From Patescibacteria group bacterium (GTDB lineage: Bacteria > Patescibacteriota > Doudnabacteria > UBA920): a stretch of 36,980 nt of DNA. The translations under genes and the position numbers were made by a program. The notes beneath the pieces are model-generated. The model was not told the DNA's origin, did not search any database, and worked only from the letters and a program-made list of their open reading frames with translations. The stretch spans positions 1 to 36,980 of the forward strand of contig WARV01000015.1 in NCBI GenBank assembly GCA_013387205.1. Reading direction: 5' to 3'. Shown here one piece after another: positions 1-36,703 of this stretch (positions are counted from its first letter, which is position 1; each line of letters opens with the position of its first letter).

Positions 1-3000
1 CCTGGGTTTGCTATACCAATACCGACGTTGCCGCTAATTATTACTCCATTTGACGGAGCCTGTGTTGCTCCTCCAGAATAAGCACCGAAAGCCATACCTC
101 CATTATTTAAAGTTAGGATTGGGGTGCCGCCAACTGTGAAGTTTGAAGAATTGTAAGCGCCTCCTTGGGCAGATATAGAAAGGTAAGCTGCCGGATTTCC
201 TTGCCGTGAAAGTCTAAAATCACCAGAACCGCCGGTTCCCGATACATTAAAAGTGCCATATACATCCAAATTCGCCCCAGGAGTAGTTGTCCCAATGCCG
301 ACGTTGCCGTACATAAACGCGGAAGCTGCCGGGTTCTTCATGAACGAGAGGAATGCTCCCCCGCCGTTTGCCATGTTTAAGTTGCCGCTGGAATCTGTAG
401 TGATGTCGTAATTAACTCCGGTTGCCGCTACTCTTAACCCCAGTGACGCAACTGAGTTATCGCCTATCTGTAATTTCTGTACAGGATTTGTCGTCCCAAT
501 GCCGACGTTTCCGGCAACTAATGTACCAGTCGCGTTTCCGGCAACTCCATTGCCAATTGCCAAAGTGCTTGTTGATATACGAGACAAGCTAACATCCATA
601 GAATTATACGATGGGCCTAGAAACAAATTAGATCCGGCAACGGGAACGCCATTATTACCGGAACTATCTTGCATAAATATCGAACCAGAACCATTAATTG
701 ACTTAACCCCAACCCATTGGCCGGTGCCAGAAGTGAATCCTATTACATTACCAACAATAACATCAGATCCTGCCTGGACGCTTCCCGTTACGCTTAAGTC
801 ATATTTTCCGGCTCCTCCCGGATACGCCATACTATATGTCGATCCAATTTGCACATGCCCTAAAACATTTAATGTTTGTCCGGGATTTGTTGTCCCAATT
901 CCAACATTACCACCAAAATATGACGTTCCACTTGTTACGTATAATGGGAAATAATTACCAGCTGTATAACCATTATTGTTTAGTGAATTTATGTTTATAC
1001 CATAAATATTTCCTGAAGTGGTAGCACCCAAAGCAGGATTAACATTTACCACACCATTACTGTTACCAGCTCCTGCACTAAAGGTTGGGCTAAAGTTTAC
1101 AACACTGTTACTACCACCCCAAGGATAACTTCCAGAGACACTTAATCCCACCGAACCCAAATAACCAGTAAGAGATATTGAAGAAGCGTCCGATGGCCCA
1201 GTACCATGAACTTGTAATTTTGCCGCCGGACTCGTTGTCCCAATTCCAACATTACCATTTTGCTGAACGTACATCCTAATCGTAGATGAAGCAGGATCAA
1301 GGCTTCCGGTGGTTAAGGCTAAATTGTAATAGCTGTTTAAATAAGTATCGAGTTGCCCAGGAGTAACAAAACTTCCTTTAGTACCGAACGTCTTGCCTGC
1401 GAAAGAATTGGTGAAATAGTAAGGTTCACTAAAGTTGACCTGGTTTACAATCGTCGAATTATAAGCAGGATTACCCGCCGCTCCCAAATAGATAGAACTA
1501 TTGCTAATACCTTGCGCAACAATTGACAAGTTACTGGCTGGCGTCGTCGTCCCAATCCCGACGTTGCCGTTTGTTACGATAACATTTCCAGCACCTTTTG
1601 GGGTCAAATTAATTCCAGCGTTAACATCTCCACCAGAAACAGTCAGGGTTGGATTATTACCAGCAGCCGCGTTATTCATAGTGAAGTAGTTATATCCACT
1701 GCCGCCGACATCATTAAAGGTGAGAATCTTACCGTTGTTATTGCCCACAAAACCAACACCTGATGTCGCAAACTGGAGACCCTGATTGCTAAATTGGAAC
1801 GAAGCACCCGCATCAATACGTAGCTGACTGCTGGCATTTTTGTAAATATTGACTGGATTTACCGAACCAAGAGTAACACCGCTTGCAGAAGTTCCTGCGT
1901 CAGAACCTAATTGGAGTAAACTGCTCGGACTCGTCGTCCCTATGCCGACGTTGCCGTTTGATAATGTTTGCAATAAAAGATTTTTGCCGTCCAGCTTCAA
2001 ATCATTGGTATACCCCCAGGTTCCAAGCCTAGCTTCGGCAAGAGCCGGGTTGGCATTATAAATCCATCCATAATTAATATTATGGGTTGAGTCTTGCCCA
2101 ACATAAAAATAACTATTTCCACTCGTATTACCTAATATTAATGAACGATTATTTGCTCCGGTTGGGTTAATATTATCGCCGAACAAGCCTGTACCTAAAA
2201 CTTGCAACGGATAGGCTGGACTTGTTGTCCCAATGCCAACACTACCACCTTCTAAAATAGTAACTCGTGTGGCACCGCCCGTTGCGAATGACAAGTTTCC
2301 ATTATTAGCTTGACTGATAGATGCATCAGTTCCACCCTGTAATTTCAACTGTCTGCCTGAAGCGCTAAAGATGGATAAAGACGAATCGGCTCCAACATTA
2401 TTTATTTCCACCGACGCATATGCGCCATTATAGCCAGCTGTCCCTACGCCAAGACCTCCCCTGATTTGAGCGTTACCATTTACATCCAGTTTGTACAAAG
2501 GGCTAGTTGTCCCAATACCAACGTTGCCGCTCTTTAATACTAATGTATTAGCCACAGCCCCTGTATGTACCATCTGGAAGACCCCCGCTGCTACATTATT
2601 AGAATCCCAATAAAAATCTCCTGCCGCGGTTGTGTAAATCGAATTGGTTGCACCGGCAGAGCTTAACTGCAAACCAGCAACACCGCTTGCCCCAGAGGTA
2701 ATATTTAAATTAGCAGTCCCCGTTGACTCTAATTTCATTAACGGATTAACCGTCCCACCGGCATCGTAAACATGCAACTTTGCTATTGGGCTTGTTGTTC
2801 CAATCCCGACGTTACCATCGACTATCATACTGTCATTCGTCCTTAAGACATTAGCGGCGTTCCTGAACAGGTTGGTATCAGCAGTTCCGTTTCCGGGACC
2901 GAAATTAATAGTCCTATTAACAACATCGAGCTGCAAAGCTGTATAAGCATCGCCGGATGTGTACAGGTCGATATTACCGTAATCATACATGTTTATCCTG

Positions 3001-6000
3001 TTCCCTGTGTCACTTGCCATAATACGGAACGAAGCCAAAGCCCCCTGATTAGCCCCTCCTCTTACGGTCAAATTAGTAACACCTGTTCCGGCAGTCTGAT
3101 CAAACACCCTGACATTTCCATTTACATCCAACTTCTGAGTTGGCGATGTAGTGCCAATTCCGACATTGCCATTTGCCAGCACTGTCATTAGATCAGACCC
3201 TCCGGCAGTTTTAATCGAAAGCAAGCTATTAGTCAATACTGGGGAACTTTGTGTATCCAAAATTAATCCACCGGTCGCAGGATTCCTATATATAAGAGGC
3301 CACACAGATCCGCCAACCAAGGCAATTCCATTACTACCACGAGCGACAACATTACCGGAGGCGTCTACTGTAAATTGATTGTTATTCCCTACTGTCAACA
3401 ATTGGGAAGGGGCTGTAGTCCCAATACCGACATTGCCGGAAGAATCAATTCTTATCCTTTCTGAACCGCCAGTAGACAATCTCAGCTGATTATTCGAGCT
3501 TATTTCAGAAATACCATTGTAAGCAGCGAGGCCCAAGGTTGACCCGCTGCCACTAGTATTTATAATTTGCGACAAGGTCCCGCCAGCAGCTGAATCAGAA
3601 ACAACCAGTTTTTGTCCAGGGTTCGTAGTCCCAATTCCGACGTTACCATCGTTCCTGACATACAGCAGGCTGGTGGAGGAAGCGTTGACCAAATTCATAG
3701 CGGACGCGGAACTATCCGTGGTGGAAGCCTGGACGTAGAGCATGGAGTTAAGGACTCCAGCAGGTACAGTTGGAGACGAGAAACCAACAGGAGCACCGAT
3801 AACCTGGCTGCCTCGAATGTAGGAATTACCCTTGTCCACGAACAAGCCCCAGTTCTGCTTGCCCTGGTCAGCCCAGACATACATGCCAATGTTGCTGTCT
3901 GCCCCAAGGCCGTTGGCCGTACCGTTAATGGAGATGTTAAAACCGGAAGTCCTGTCCACATAAGTCTTAATAGCTTGAGGCTCGGAATCTCCATCATGAG
4001 TTTCTACGTGGATTTTCCCCCCGCCGCTGGTTGCGGAATCCCGACCCACGTACAACCAACCGGTAATCTGCTGATTGCCGGAAACAGACAAAGTCTGGGT
4101 AGGAGTAGTCGTCCCAATCCCCACATTCGTCCCGTTATTGTAAAGATTAGATGTCGCAGTCCAAGAAGTACCATTATTATAGAGAGTCTGGCCGGTAGTT
4201 CCAGAAGGTAAAGCTCCCCCGCCAGTCAGATTTATTCCGTTCCAGTACAAGTTACCAGAAGTGTTATACAAACGATTGGCAGTAGCAGCCGGAGTAGTTG
4301 TAGCTTCTATATATATCCTACCATTGACATCCAAATCTTCAGCCGGGGTGGTGGTGCCAATACCGACGTTGCCATCTATTATAGCCGTACCTGTAACTCT
4401 TAAGATCCCCGGGCTTAAACGATACAAAGAGATATCTCCACTGCTTCCGAATGAGAACCCTCCATTAATACTATCTTGCACTCTAATGATTCCACCGCCC
4501 TGATTAAACATCTGCATGCTGCCGGATGAACCCAAAGCCAAAGTGCCATTAACATGCAAAGCAGCCTGCGGGCTTGTTGTCCCAATACCGACGTTGCCTG
4601 ATATAGGAAGTATAGTCAGACGTTCTGCGACTCCTGCCTCAGTAATAGAAAATCTAGATGGGCTATTATAGGCTTGTAAATCCCATCCAGCCGCAGAAGA
4701 TAATCGCAAATAATGGTTTGCACCTGCTCCATTACCAATTTGCAAATCTACTGCTGGATTCGTAGTTCCAATCCCCACATTACCATAATTGTCTATTGTC
4801 ATCCGAGGGCCAGGCCAACCTCCCCCATTAGATTTTGTATAAAAATTAAGTTTTGCTCCTGCAAAAGCGCCTGTGCCAACTTCCGTAGCCTGTATACCCG
4901 CCACGTTATAATGCGCATCAGCCTGACCGCCAGAGCGCGAGAACATAGTTGCGCCAAGAATAGCGCCGTCGGTGTTTGCATCGGAAACAAGGTTCAAAGC
5001 AGAGTTGTTCAGATCTCTAACTTGAATCGTTTTCGCAGAGGTCGGTACTATCTGATAAGTACTGTTCCCGTTAATATAATTCACTCCTCCTCCAATATCG
5101 AAAACAGTTTGCGGATTTGTTATCCCAATACCGACGTTGCCATTATCGAAAATCGAACTTGTACCTATGGTGTTGGCGTCGATCCATTTGGTGATGTAAT
5201 TCTGCGTTCCTGTCATGGCAGTAAACGCGCCGCTGCCGTTTCCTTTTACAACGCCGGTGATTGTGGAAGTCCCGCTGCCGCCCTTGCTGACAGGCAACGT
5301 GCCGGAGGTATCAGAAGAAAGATCAACTGTTCCCGAAGACAGCGTGCCGTCTGCGCCGACTTTAACTATCCCTGCACTGCCGATACCGGTAAGCTTAACC
5401 GTGCCACTGACCAACATCGAACCGTCAACTGTAAGCATTGACGACGGCGTAGTAGTATTTACGCCAACCTTGCCGCCTGCAGCCGGAATTAAGTTGATGT
5501 TTCCGCTGGTCAAGGTCTTCATCACCAAATCGCCATTTGTCTTTTGCACAGTGCCGGTTTCAACAGTCCCGATTGCGGCCGTATTAGTCACGGTCAAAGC
5601 AGTGCCGGCTGCGCTAAACGTTGAAGCGCCGGTAAAGGTGTTGGCACCGGCTCCCGATTGGATGTAAGAACCCGATGCATTGATGGTTCCGGTTGAAACC
5701 GAAGCGCTGGTAACAGATCCCGCCACGGTCAAATTGCCGGATGAAGTAATTTTATTCGATGCGCTGAAAAATTGGATGTCGCCGGAAGCGGCAGATTGCA
5801 AAGTTAAAGTGTTGGTGCTGGTAGCGGTTATTTGCGGATTAGTCCCTGACAAATTCAGGTTGCCGTTGGTGAGCACGGGAATCTGGTTTCCGGACGGAGA
5901 CTGCGACGGAGCAAACCCGCCTACAGTGCTGGAATTGACCGCGTAACCTGAAGACATAATTCTCTGCCTCGGCGATAAAGTTTCAAACGACACGCCAGAA

Positions 6001-16958: not shown

Positions 16959-17047
16959 AATCCTAATTCCCCGAATTACCATCCGAATGCCCCAAATGAG
17001 TCCTTCCCTTTTCGGGTCATTTGGATAGAATTCGGGTAATTCGGATT
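16959..17047. repeat. ATTCGGG-family palindrome, copy 2 (eno-gpmI junction)
   Basis: Fills the whole junction. Its right end GGATT overlaps the TAA stop of eno (17046-17048). Its left end holds AGGA seven bases before the gpmI ATG. On the minus strand the two feet (AATCC and GGATT) are complementary. Confidence 0.92.
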
Positions 17048-18287
17048 ATATCTGCTCCTCGATTTCCATTAACCGATTATACTTCGCCAATCTTTCTCCC
17101 CTGCTCGGTGCGCCGGTTTTTATATAATCAGCATTCGTCGCTACGGCCAAATCCGCAATAAAACTGTCGCAGGTCTCCCCGCTCCTGTGGGAAATGACAA
17201 TTTTATAATTATGGTCCTGCGCCAGCTTAATCGCCCTCATGGTTTCAGTTAAAGTGCCAATCTGGTTGACTTTAATAAGCACTGCATTGGCCATTTTTTT
17301 CGAGATGCCCAATTGGATGCGGTTTGGGTTGGTCACGAACAAATCGTCGCCGACAAGCAAAGCCTGCCTGCCCATTGCTTTGGTCATTTTTTGCCAGCCA
17401 ATGAAATCGTCCTCACTGCAGCCGTCTTCGATTATCGCTAAGTGATATTTTTTTGCCCATTTCTCGTAAAGCCCGTAGACGTTATCTGGGGTTAAAGATG
17501 CGCCCGATGCTTTAAGTTCATACTTGCCGGATTTCGAATTGAAAAATTCGCTGGCTGCGGCATCCATGCCTAATTTAAAATCAGTGCCCAATTTGTATTT
17601 GGCAGTTTTAAGGGCCTGCGACAACTGTTTTAAAGCTTCTTCATTTGAGCCAAGTTTTGGCGCGAACCCGCCTTCGTCGCCAACTGCTGTAGTCAGGCTT
17701 TGCTTGGCCAATTGCTGCTTTAAAATATGAAAAACTTCTGTACCTTTTCTAAGCTTTTCAGCAAAACTACCTTTTTGCGGGATAATGAAAAATTCCTGTA
17801 TATCTAAGCCTGAATCTGCATGTTTTCCCCCGTTTATGACGTTAAAAAGAGGTGTGGGAAGGGCTTTTACCTTGCGGTGGTACGATAAAGCCAGGTAAGA
17901 AAAAAGTTCTTTATCGGCCAATTTTGCAGCAACTCTGACACAAGCCAAAGATACGGCCAAAATGGCATTTGCCCCAAATTTTGACTTATTCGGCGTGCCG
18001 TCTAAATCTATCATTTTCTGGTCAATGTCCTGCTGGTGTGTGACATCCATACCGACCAATGCTTTGGCAATAATATTATTCACATTCTTGCAGGCTTTTA
18101 AAACCCCTTTGCCGCCATACCTTTTTTTGTCGCCATCCCTAAGCTCCAAGGCTTCGTGTATGCCGGTTGACGCGCCGCTCGGCACGCTTGCTTTTGCAAA
18201 TACATCTCCAGCCCAAACTGTTGCTTCCACAGTCGGATTTCCCCTGCTGTCTAATATTTCCCTCGCATGAATTTTGGTGATTTCCAT
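17046..18287 (-). CDS. eno: Enolase (phosphopyruvate hydratase)
   Basis: 413 residues, a little shorter than the usual 425-430. It converts 2-phosphoglycerate to phosphoenolpyruvate in the cytoplasm with magnesium. Recognisable parts: AREILDSRGNPTVEATV (N-terminus), SVPSGASTG (mobile loop), VGDEGGFAP, the metal ligands in AIIEDGCSEDDF and LLVGDDLFVTNP, the catalytic Lys region LIKVNQIGTLTE, and ISHRSGET near the end. The start is ATG at 18285-18287 with GGAAAG upstream. The stop codon is formed at the edge of a palindromic repeat, and a TrpR-like repeat-bounded gene separates it from pgk. Confidence 0.98.
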   Translation of the reverse strand: MEITKIHAREILDSRGNPTVEATVWAGDVFAKASVPSGASTGIHEALELRDGDKKRYGGKGVLKACKNVNNIIAKALVGMDVTHQQDIDQKMIDLDGTPNKSKFGANAILAVSLACVRVAAKLADKELFSYLALSYHRKVKALPTPLFNVINGGKHADSGLDIQEFFIIPQKGSFAEKLRKGTEVFHILKQQLAKQSLTTAVGDEGGFAPKLGSNEEALKQLSQALKTAKYKLGTDFKLGMDAAASEFFNSKSGKYELKASGASLTPDNVYGLYEKWAKKYHLAIIEDGCSEDDFIGWQKMTKAMGRQALLVGDDLFVTNPNRIQLGISKKMANAVLIKVNQIGTLTETMRAIKLAQDHNYKIVISHRSGETCDSFIADLAVATNADYIKTGAPSRGERLAKYNRLMEIEEQI

Positions 18288-18336
18288 TAGTTTCTTTCCG
18301 ATTAATTACAATATAATTATACCATAAAAAAACTCA

Positions 18337-18894
18337 TCAAACTCTCCCATACGCTGGAGCATGAGAGAGTTTATTTGATTGCAAAATTTTCATCAAGTCT
18401 TTGGTTAATCTGGTTTTTTCCCTTATATCAGCCACTACTTTCAATAACTTCTTTTTTTCTTTAATACTTGCGGATTTAACAATCTCTTTTAACAATAACT
18501 CCGGCCAAAAATACATTGGATATTTCTTTTTTACTTTTGACCAAGACAGAGGATCGGTTTCACCCCCTTCTTTTTCACGACTTGATTCCGTTCTTTTAAT
18601 AACTGTTCGAACACCATCACCATATGTATTCATCCAAAGCTGCACTCTAGCGATGGTGGAATTACCGACCTGCATTGCTTTGTGCATCTGTTCATATGTG
18701 TATCCATTATTAATCAATCTGGCAATTTGTAACCGTCTCGCTAAAATCACCACTTCTTGTTCAGTCAATAAATCTTTAATCAAATTAGCTGCTTCAATTG
18801 AATTTTTTATGCTTCCAATTGCTTCTGCAAAATCTATAAATAATTCGTCTATTTCTTTTTTTGATAAGCGCCTTGGGGCGTCAAATTTTCCCAT
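18337..18894 (-). CDS. TrpR-like (YerC/YecD-type) DNA-binding protein
   Basis: 185 residues. Residues about 40-95 match the Trp-repressor-like helix-turn-helix fold (LTEQEVVILARRLQIARLIN, then YEQMHKAM and STIARVQLWM). The remainder is longer than in TrpR or YerC and is mostly helical and basic (KKKYPMYFW, SIKEKKKLLKVV), so it is an unusual extended form. There are no tryptophan biosynthesis genes nearby and the ligand is unknown. The start is ATG at 18892-18894. Two closely related hairpins bracket the gene. The downstream one is inside the reading frame and encodes the last residues (LSHAPAYGRV), so the protein's end is made of repeat sequence. The upstream one is a likely binding site. Autoregulation or a mobile module is inference. 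Confidence 0.8.
   Translation of the reverse strand: MGKFDAPRRLSKKEIDELFIDFAEAIGSIKNSIEAANLIKDLLTEQEVVILARRLQIARLINNGYTYEQMHKAMQVGNSTIARVQLWMNTYGDGVRTVIKRTESSREKEGGETDPLSWSKVKKKYPMYFWPELLLKEIVKSASIKEKKKLLKVVADIREKTRLTKDLMKILQSNKLSHAPAYGRV
18339..18372. repeat. TrpR-module hairpin, 3' copy (overlaps the coding end)
   Basis: AAACTCTCCCAT at 18339-18350 pairs with 18361-18372. The single mismatch becomes a G-U pair in the minus-strand RNA. The loop ACGCTGGAGC contains a small GCT-GG-AGC dyad. It is closely related to 18911-18940 and codes for the C-terminus of the TrpR-like protein. Confidence 0.85.
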
Positions 18895-18910
18895 AATACA
18901 AATCTGTCAT

Positions 18911-18940
18911 TTTCTCCCATGCACTGGAGTATGGGAGAAA
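18911..18940. repeat. TrpR-module hairpin, 5' copy
   Basis: TTTCTCCCAT (18911-18920) pairs perfectly with 18931-18940; the loop is GCACTGGAGT. Compared with the other copy, the inner dyad has changed from GCT-AGC to ACT-AGT, a compensating pair of changes that keeps the symmetry. It ends 17 bp upstream of the TrpR-like start and 10 bp after the pgk stop. Confidence 0.85.
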
Positions 18941-18950
18941 TATTAATAAT

Positions 18951-20174
18951 TTATTTTAGCGCTTCAATTCCCGGCAGTTTTTCTCCGGCCAAGAATTCCA
19001 GCATTGCGCCGCCGCCGGTGGAGACATGGTCAATATGTTCGAATTGCCCGGCCAGTCTAACTGCGTCCACAGTCTCTCCCCCGCCCACCACGCCAAAAGC
19101 CTTGCGAGTGCTTACCCCGCCCACCACCCGGGCCAAAGCCATAGTCGCGGTGTTAAACGGCCTGACTTCAAACAGGCCCAAAGGCCCATTCCATACAATC
19201 GTCTTGGCAACTTTCAATTCATTGGCAAATTTCAAAATTGTTTTCGGACCAATGTCGTAAATGGTCTCGTCCTTGCGGATTTCGTGCGGAGTTGTAACGC
19301 GAATAGTATTTTTACCCATGTTTTTATCCGCTACAACAACATCAACCGGCAGAATAATTTTATCTTTAAAATTCTTTTCCAAATGCCAGGCTGTTTTTTT
19401 GGCTTCGGCTTCCACTTTGGAGCCGCCTATCTCGTAGCCTTTGGACAAAAAGAATAAATTGGCAATCCCGCCAGCCAGCAAAATCTTGTCAGCCTTTTTC
19501 CCCAAGTTTTCTATGGTTTTGACTTTGTCGGAAATCTTTATCCCGCCCATCATCAACACAAACGGCTGTTTGCTGTGCTTTAAAACTATTTCCAAAGACT
19601 TAATTTCTTTTTCGAGCAGCAACCCCGCAAAAGACGGCAAATATTTAGTAATTGCAGAAATTGAAGCAGCTTCGCGATGGCTCACCCCAAACGCATCATT
19701 TACAAACACATCGGCAAGTCCGGCCAGCTTCTTGGCAAACTGCGCGCTGTTTTCCTCTTCGCCTTTGTAAAACCTTAAATTCTCCAAAATTACCAAATCT
19801 TTAGCTGGGATATTTTTTATTTGTTTTTGATGCTTGTCCTGAGCAATATCTCCGGTATAAAAAATTAAGTGAGGAATGTGGTAGTCGGGAACTTTATGAT
19901 CGGTATGAATGAACTTCATGCCAAACATATCTGCTAATTTTTCCGCGACTGGCTTTAAAGAAAGCTGATTGGACTTTTTCCCTTTTGGCCTGCCCAAATG
20001 CCCGCATAAAATAATTTTATTGCCGCCTTTCTGCAGCAATTTAATAGTCGGCACTATTTGCTCAATTCGAAAACCGTCCGCCACTTTGCAGTTTTCTATC
20101 GGGACATTAACATCCACGCGCAAAAGCACGGTTTTATTTTTGATTGTGTTTGGTTTAAGATATTTTATAGACAT
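18951..20174 (-). CDS. pgk: Phosphoglycerate kinase
   Basis: 407 residues, normal length. It makes ATP from 1,3-bisphosphoglycerate in glycolysis. The N-terminal substrate site shows LLRVDVNVPIE and GHLGRPKGK, followed by ENLRFYKGEEEN and VNDAFGVSHREAAS. The hinge and nucleotide domain shows LMMGGIKISDKV, then the C-terminal GGVSTRKAFGVVGGGETVDA and STGGGAMLEFLAGEKLPGIEAL. The start is ATG at 20172-20174. Its natural partner gap is upstream in transcription order, but a repeat-bounded GxxExxY gene has come between them. Confidence 0.98.
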   Translation of the reverse strand: MSIKYLKPNTIKNKTVLLRVDVNVPIENCKVADGFRIEQIVPTIKLLQKGGNKIILCGHLGRPKGKKSNQLSLKPVAEKLADMFGMKFIHTDHKVPDYHIPHLIFYTGDIAQDKHQKQIKNIPAKDLVILENLRFYKGEEENSAQFAKKLAGLADVFVNDAFGVSHREAASISAITKYLPSFAGLLLEKEIKSLEIVLKHSKQPFVLMMGGIKISDKVKTIENLGKKADKILLAGGIANLFFLSKGYEIGGSKVEAEAKKTAWHLEKNFKDKIILPVDVVVADKNMGKNTIRVTTPHEIRKDETIYDIGPKTILKFANELKVAKTIVWNGPLGLFEVRPFNTATMALARVVGGVSTRKAFGVVGGGETVDAVRLAGQFEHIDHVSTGGGAMLEFLAGEKLPGIEALK

Positions 20175-36445: not shown

Positions 36446-36703
36446 TTAATGATGCCCTCCGTGGCCACCGCCATGTCCGTGCCCTCCGCCATGGCCTCCT
36501 CCGTGGCCACCGCCGCCTGCTCCAAAAAATTCACTAAGGACATCCGGCAGTTCTAACGGAGCACCCAAACCGGATTCCCAACCAACTTCAAAACCGGCTT
36601 CAGTCAAACCTTTGACGGATTTTTCAAACATACTCTCCTCTCCGCCGCCATGGCCTCCTCCGTGTCCTCCGTGGCCACCATGACCTCCGTGTTCTGCTGA
36701 CAT
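36446..36703 (-). CDS. Gly/His-rich small protein
   Basis: 85 residues. Both ends are runs of GGH (residues about 5-21 and 63-85), with more than a dozen histidines in total. The centre (about 22-60) is ordinary and probably partly helical, with MFEKSVKGLTEAGFEVGW and LELPDVLSEFFGAG. The histidine arrays suggest binding of divalent metal ions, but there is no link to a transporter or enzyme here. The start is ATG at 36701-36703. It is first in a likely two-gene unit with the helical protein downstream. The simple-repeat ends are prone to slippage, so their length may vary among strains. Confidence 0.7.
   Translation of the reverse strand: MSAEHGGHGGHGGHGGGHGGGEESMFEKSVKGLTEAGFEVGWESGLGAPLELPDVLSEFFGAGGGGHGGGHGGGHGHGGGHGGHH

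Follow-up and report, generated by a model that had tools for sequence, protein, structure and literature searches.

The closest described relatives of the system reported here are regulators of the TrpR family. HisR (YerC), which occurs in Firmicutes and other bacteria, is a validated member of this family that recognizes lineage-specific 20-bp palindromic operators and commonly regulates its own gene (PMC9413887). It is about 100 amino acids long and usually encoded by a single gene copy, with its sites located upstream of his genes (PMC9413887). TrpR of E. coli likewise combines a helix-turn-helix (HTH) fold with a 20-bp palindromic operator, with the core ATAC..GTAT, and autoregulation. 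A gene of this family lies in the window analyzed here, a stretch of 36,980 nucleotides from a Doudnabacteria genome of 1.3 Mb in 24 contigs, whose nearest named relatives are Candidatus Doudnabacteria. It occupies positions 18337..18894 on the minus strand and encodes a protein of 185 amino acids, in which a TrpR-type HTH domain is followed by a C-terminal extension of about 75 residues. The protein shares with HisR the domain matched by the PF01371 (E 5.6e-15, 55.6 bits, curated cut-off 27) and TIGR02531 (yecD_yerC; 47.5 bits, curated cut-off 42.2) profiles and also its nearest folds, since the solved structures closest to the AlphaFold2 model were 3frw, 3kor and 3g1c (Foldseek probability 1.00 and E about 2e-3 for 3kor and 3frw, with the C-terminal half of the model being poorly resolved). 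The extension (KKYPMYFWPELLLKEIVKSA..., 18361..18540, minus strand) is absent from HisR and TrpR in the alignment and has a low pLDDT and an uncertain fold; searches with Pfam and NCBIfam profiles matched the TrpR domain alone and nothing beyond it.

The gene is flanked upstream by pgk (18951..20174, minus strand), a neighbor also found in G012 and G020, and downstream by eno (17046..18287, minus strand), while no trp genes adjoin it; in general, the neighbors of such framed TrpR-like genes are glycolytic or unrelated genes and not amino-acid targets. A candidate eno promoter with an extended -10-like element, TGGTATAAT, can be read from the sequence just past the downstream palindrome (18316..18324, minus strand), and a similar TATAAT is present between pgk and eno in G012 and G004. 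Elsewhere in the window, many overlapping open reading frames rich in Pro and Val, with a repeated VPIPTLP, were seen on the plus strand at 113-5950 and are probably the antisense reading of a minus-strand gene that encodes a large repetitive protein, and an open reading frame at 36446-36703 (minus strand) encodes a His/Gly-rich protein of 85 amino acids (HGGHGGHGGG...).

The first-pass annotation had described two related palindromes bracketing the TrpR-like gene, and both are indeed present. The upstream palindrome (18908..18943) has its center about 31 bp ahead of the start codon and a counterpart in nearly all homologues, and the downstream palindrome (18338..18373), the best match of our model R1 in the genome (E 2.3e-7), covers the last codons and the stop codon. 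Their inner palindromes, TCTCCCATACGCTGGAGCATGAGAGA at 18343-18368 and TCTCCCATGCACTGGAGTATGGGAGA at 18913-18938, are related and imperfect. The same annotation had interpreted a difference between the two copies, GCT/AGC to ACT/AGT, as a paired change that implies selection on symmetry. In the register of the family, in which the dyad center falls between T and G of CTGG, the changed bases are found at position 3 in one arm and at position 5 in the other and are thus not partners; in the RNA fold, they belong to a 6-nt loop or adjoin it. Considered at position 5, both copies represent one and the same site with its half-sites exchanged (CATAC..GCATG and CATGC..GTATG). The downstream copy is translated as the end of the protein (...LSHAPAYGRV-stop), as had been noted, although this is incidental, because most relatives have this copy at the stop codon or beyond it. 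Exact matches to the core number just four in the 1.3 Mb genome, of which the two outside the unit are intergenic at C17:35645 and in frame within prmC at C23:171572; allowing up to three mismatches, the core had 12 genome matches compared to one for a reversed-pattern control.

Homologues collected from 60 related genomes and additional named genomes indicated that framing by palindromes is a property of the family. We compared approximately 55 distinct long-form relatives from across Patescibacteria: the start codon is preceded by a palindrome in nearly all of them, and a matching palindrome is found at the stop codon in most. At 24 Doudnabacteria loci the upstream palindrome is in most cases centered 23-60 bp ahead of the start codon, and a second palindrome usually sits at or just past the stop codon; the two palindromes of one locus are alike, while the words differ between loci. 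A second set of 32 loci, two of them already part of the first set, extended to Moranii-, Falkow-, Levyi-, Uhr-, Gottesman-, Davies-, Berkel- and Taylorbacteria, and most of its upstream and downstream regions contained a palindrome exceeding the level of shuffled sequence, except that a few palindromes were judged spurious from their sequence (L333) and no palindrome was present at a few ends. A diverged clade of 163-aa proteins (G044, G040, G041) is also framed. Most short YerC proteins are unframed; framing may nevertheless extend to short members, as judged from L350 in G009 (L350:1040-1440), where palindromes, GTGCTACTTTACTAGCAC and TTTTGCGCTATTGTGCTAGCACAGTAGCGCAAAA, lie close to either end of a TrpR-like gene of 95 amino acids. 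Across genera, related proteins share pgk, yvcK, cysS or a glycosyltransferase gene as syntenic neighbors, and these stable neighborhoods therefore favor long vertical descent.

The flanks of homologous TrpR-like genes, whose alignment the first-pass annotation had proposed, gave a strongly positive result, with matched palindromes that retain their symmetry through change. In 65 centered sequences, covariation across the 16-pair dyad was 0.450, compared to 0.149 (sd 0.012) with shuffled partners, and it was at most 0.115 when partners were slid by 1-3 columns. Standard pairs made up 84.1%, a value inflated by the fact that the centering of these sequences was searched for symmetry, and changes on both sides were found in 15 of the 16 pairs. 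A fairer measure is the score relative to partners shuffled inside fixed columns, although relatedness remains in the shuffle. Covariation between loci and genomes is thus real, even though the argument drawn from the two copies of the window was mis-registered. The arms remain complementary out to about position 18, and when the two copies of one locus were compared at positions 11-16, 18 of 30 two-sided differences were paired in both copies.

The ten positions nearest the dyad on either side (1-10) form a 20-bp core with the layout of TrpR and HisR operators (geometry comparison; PMC9413887). In an alignment of 22 homologues the recognition helix, which comprises residues 78-91 in the AlphaFold2 model, reads KVxxxTIARVQ, and residues 77-79 at its start (Gly-Asn-Ser in the window, codons 18658..18666, minus strand) are highly variable within an otherwise conserved helix. 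A coevolution scan over 47 proteins ranked residues 77 and 76 at the top for half-site positions 4-10, and residues 77, 78 and 79 took 2nd, 4th and 8th place for positions 8-10, with no column exceeding the family-wide max-null threshold. A test directed at residues 77-79 was significant, with the qualification that these residues were picked after seeing the scan and that shared ancestry was not fully removed. In all 16 proteins with Gly at residue 77, position 8 of the half-site was C, compared to 14 of 31 proteins with other residues (p 1e-4). Among protein pairs less than 45% identical, those sharing 0, 1, 2 or 3 of residues 77-79 differed by 1.95, 1.71, 1.45 and 0.48 half-site mismatches of 3, respectively (with two or more residues shared, permutation p<2e-4). 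For instance, the protein of the window and that of Falkowbacteria L315 are only 40% identical, both carry GNS and have CTCCCATAC in common, while other alleles combine the helix start SSS with the site CTTCGATAC (L331) or SPA with CTATCATAC (L324). Residues 77-79 are therefore correlated with, and appear to predict, the bases of the half-site.

A covariance model of the palindrome, searched across the 60 genomes, gave matches in 26 of them. Palindromes were found in all 15 genomes with a close long-form protein and in 11 of the 45 others (p 1.5e-7), several of these 11 holding a diverged long form. Dispersed copies differed from the framing allele of their own genome by 1.38 mismatches and from the alleles of other genomes by 2.49 (p<2e-4). 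In prmC, several genomes have different words with complementary arms at the same site, most of them resembling the framing allele of the respective genome, and a similar allele change at a shared site was observed between pyrC and carA in G014 and G018; the sites in prmC, in pyrC-carA and after hisS are old. With regard to placement, 49 dispersed sites lie between co-directional genes, 14 between convergent genes, 10 within open reading frames and one between divergent genes. All intergenic sites except one are thus downstream of at least one gene, and only one of 64 falls between divergent genes, where 15.6% (about 10) would be expected (p 4e-4, using a simple ORF caller).

Some palindromes lack a corresponding protein. 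G009 has about a dozen copies, with a short TrpR-like gene as its only one, CTTCACTAC copies in G000 have no matching long-form protein, and some copies in G018 match none of its framing alleles. A second word in G000, CTTCACTACTTCGAAGTAGTGAAG, occurs with variable complementary outer arms at seven places (C6:29512, C16:38375, C17:26214, C17:36320, C17:36854, C19:1450 and C20:87359), and no TrpR-like gene matching it was found in this 98%-complete genome; at two of the seven places a third related palindrome is located 50-70 bp away. Three genera also have palindromes, each of a different word, 19-24 bp past the hisS stop codon (G000:C20:87359, G009:C14:2552, G011:C25:5100), which is intriguing since HisR senses histidine, but may be due to chance. 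In addition, prmC of G010 (L116) contains an unrelated GC-rich repeat, PSPLPPNFAKATMGRRGRGIKGEG, at the position that holds the palindrome elsewhere, marking it as an insertion hot spot.

Taken together, we consider the palindromes to be extended double-stranded binding sites of the TrpR/HisR-type protein whose gene they frame, serving its autoregulation, with a probability of roughly 60%. This explanation builds on the observed framing, the symmetry retained through change, the correlation with recognition residues, the association across genomes and the match of dispersed copies to their own allele; from these we infer binding itself, repression and an effect of binding at the dispersed copies, which most likely consists of a roadblock or insulator at gene ends. 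The product of the framed gene would be a repressor of the TrpR/HisR type that carries an additional C-terminal domain and whose recognition helix, as at the operators of TrpR and HisR, reads half-sites at positions 4-10 to either side of the dyad. For autoregulation, the protein would use the upstream site as its operator; in some members of the family, this site coincides exactly with the -35/-10 spacer. As would be expected for autoregulation, TTGACA is positioned exactly 17 bp before the -10 slot of the right arm in 9 of 49 upstream framing copies. The upstream site of the window is not among these nine and has no recognizable promoter, so that the operator-like geometry, with half-sites at about positions 4-10, is accompanied by overlap with the gene's own promoter in part of the family and not in the window. 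At the downstream site, which fronts the next gene, the same protein might act on eno or stop read-through, and the dispersed copies would be further sites changing in step with the protein. Several observations stand against this explanation: dispersed copies shun divergent gene pairs and are in some cases intragenic, unlike ordinary operators, and the lack of divergent sites led us to reject a promoter-operator role for them; the arms, reaching to about position 18, exceed what an operator needs; and to these are added the palindromes without a matching long-form protein in G009 and G000, the absence of a scan column past the family-wide max-null and the missing promoter at the window's upstream site.

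The first-pass annotation had left open whether the symmetry reflects an RNA hairpin or a two-fold protein site, and the dependence of half-site bases on residues 77-79 and the 20-bp geometry favor the latter. A hairpin acting in the transcript as a terminator, as protection of mRNA ends or as a protein-bound RNA would be in agreement with well-folding stems, with the location of dispersed sites downstream of genes and with an excess of G.T over A.C mismatches in framing copies (62:35, p 0.008). In the 59 dispersed copies, however, G.T and A.C mismatches were balanced (26:23), indicating no strand bias, and a T-run, as expected for an intrinsic terminator, followed the stem in only four, which makes a role as RNA unlikely for these copies. 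Moreover, several alleles are symmetric through the very center (ACGT, AGCT), which cannot form in a hairpin loop, asymmetric centers have opposite orientations relative to the gene in different lineages, and a search of the window against Rfam 15 gave no match above the gathering score. We thus rejected a terminator or RNA hairpin and regard an action in the transcript as highly improbable. A paired change alone is also no proof of selection, because template-switch correction of quasi-palindromes likewise keeps arms complementary. It is conceivable, though on balance doubtful, that the inner site alone is selected as a protein site and the outer symmetry is of such mutational origin, an explanation that is compatible with binding sites and would leave the compensating outer changes without functional meaning. 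In line with it, outer arms vary freely among copies attributed to the same protein while staying paired, and five copies in G011 have a common 28-bp core and unrelated outer flanks; the outer words GCAAATA and ACATTT, which recur in many lineages, are left unexplained by it. Selection and correction are inseparable with these data, and correction may explain part of the outer symmetry.

Alternatively, the palindromes might belong to a mobile element of the REP or Rickettsia type, in which the framed gene is the full unit, the dispersed palindromes are its inserted offspring placed after stop codons or in frame, and the TrpR-like protein aids spread or controls copy number. Several features would fit such an element, namely the long self-complementary arms, the orphan copies, the placement after stop codons with avoidance of divergent promoters, and the in-frame insert in prmC (SHTPAYGRIG), which is limited to this one locus and missing from several relatives. 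Likewise, the framed unit is present between pgk and eno in G012 and absent from its genus mate G004; neighbors without the gene contained no left-over palindrome in this gap, with relatives being too diverged for an analysis of target duplications. On the other hand, no nuclease or recombinase motif was recognized, the syntenic neighbors of related proteins across genera indicate long vertical descent, several sites (after hisS, within prmC, between pyrC and carA) are old, and Y1 transposases do not track the palindromes, which occur without Y1 in G003, G011, G030, G034, G042, G046 and G047, while other genomes have Y1 without palindromes. We therefore find mobility rather unlikely. Were it true, these sequences would constitute a new dispersed palindromic element in Patescibacteria whose spread or number is kept by a non-catalytic palindrome reader, a proposal we regard with considerable reserve, and it is similarly questionable that protein, framing and dispersed palindromes turn over together as dialects, with insertion at gene ends and in frame.

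A search of the open-access literature revealed no earlier description of a TrpR-like gene framed by palindromes, and the sequence comparisons point to an undescribed protein-DNA partnership across the whole phylum. Its matched protein and palindrome alleles represent a natural series from which a DNA-reading code of the TrpR family could be derived from sequence, and likely binding sites can be assigned to regulators in unculturable bacteria; if the dispersed copies are mobile, they would represent a palindromic element whose partner protein has been identified. In contrast to HisR, the proteins described here have about 75 extra residues and several paralogues per genome in many relatives, and their sites are found at both ends of the gene, past stop codons and within genes, with arms of about 18-20 bp. 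Being a short single-domain protein that targets amino-acid genes is a feature of the characterized HisR and not of the fold family, and the protein described here departs from it in its length, its extension and its glycolytic or unrelated neighbors. Compared to E. coli TrpR, with which it shares the HTH fold, a 20-bp palindromic layout and probably autoregulation, the system differs in its core, TGTAcTnGTnnACnAgTACA, in the absence of adjoining trp genes and in the C-terminal extension. Short palindromes dispersed after genes and a palindrome-framed gene are also typical of REP/RAYT systems; here, the framed protein is TrpR-like and the unit is without a Y1 (HUH) transposase. We rejected a REP/RAYT origin because the distribution of Y1 genes does not follow that of the palindromes and because the genome's own RAYT is accompanied by different hairpins. 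The latter gene, a RAYT-like Y1 transposase at L196:800-1430, is flanked on both sides by GC-rich hairpins preceded by GTAG and constitutes a conventional REP system of its own, separate from the palindromes. In Rickettsia palindromic elements, a palindrome is inserted in frame within a protein gene, and the prmC insertion absent from relatives resembles this situation at one locus. Unlike those elements, the palindromes of Patescibacteria are tied to the gene of a predicted DNA-binding protein, form an element of about 40-56 bp, and occupy old sites that co-evolve with it.
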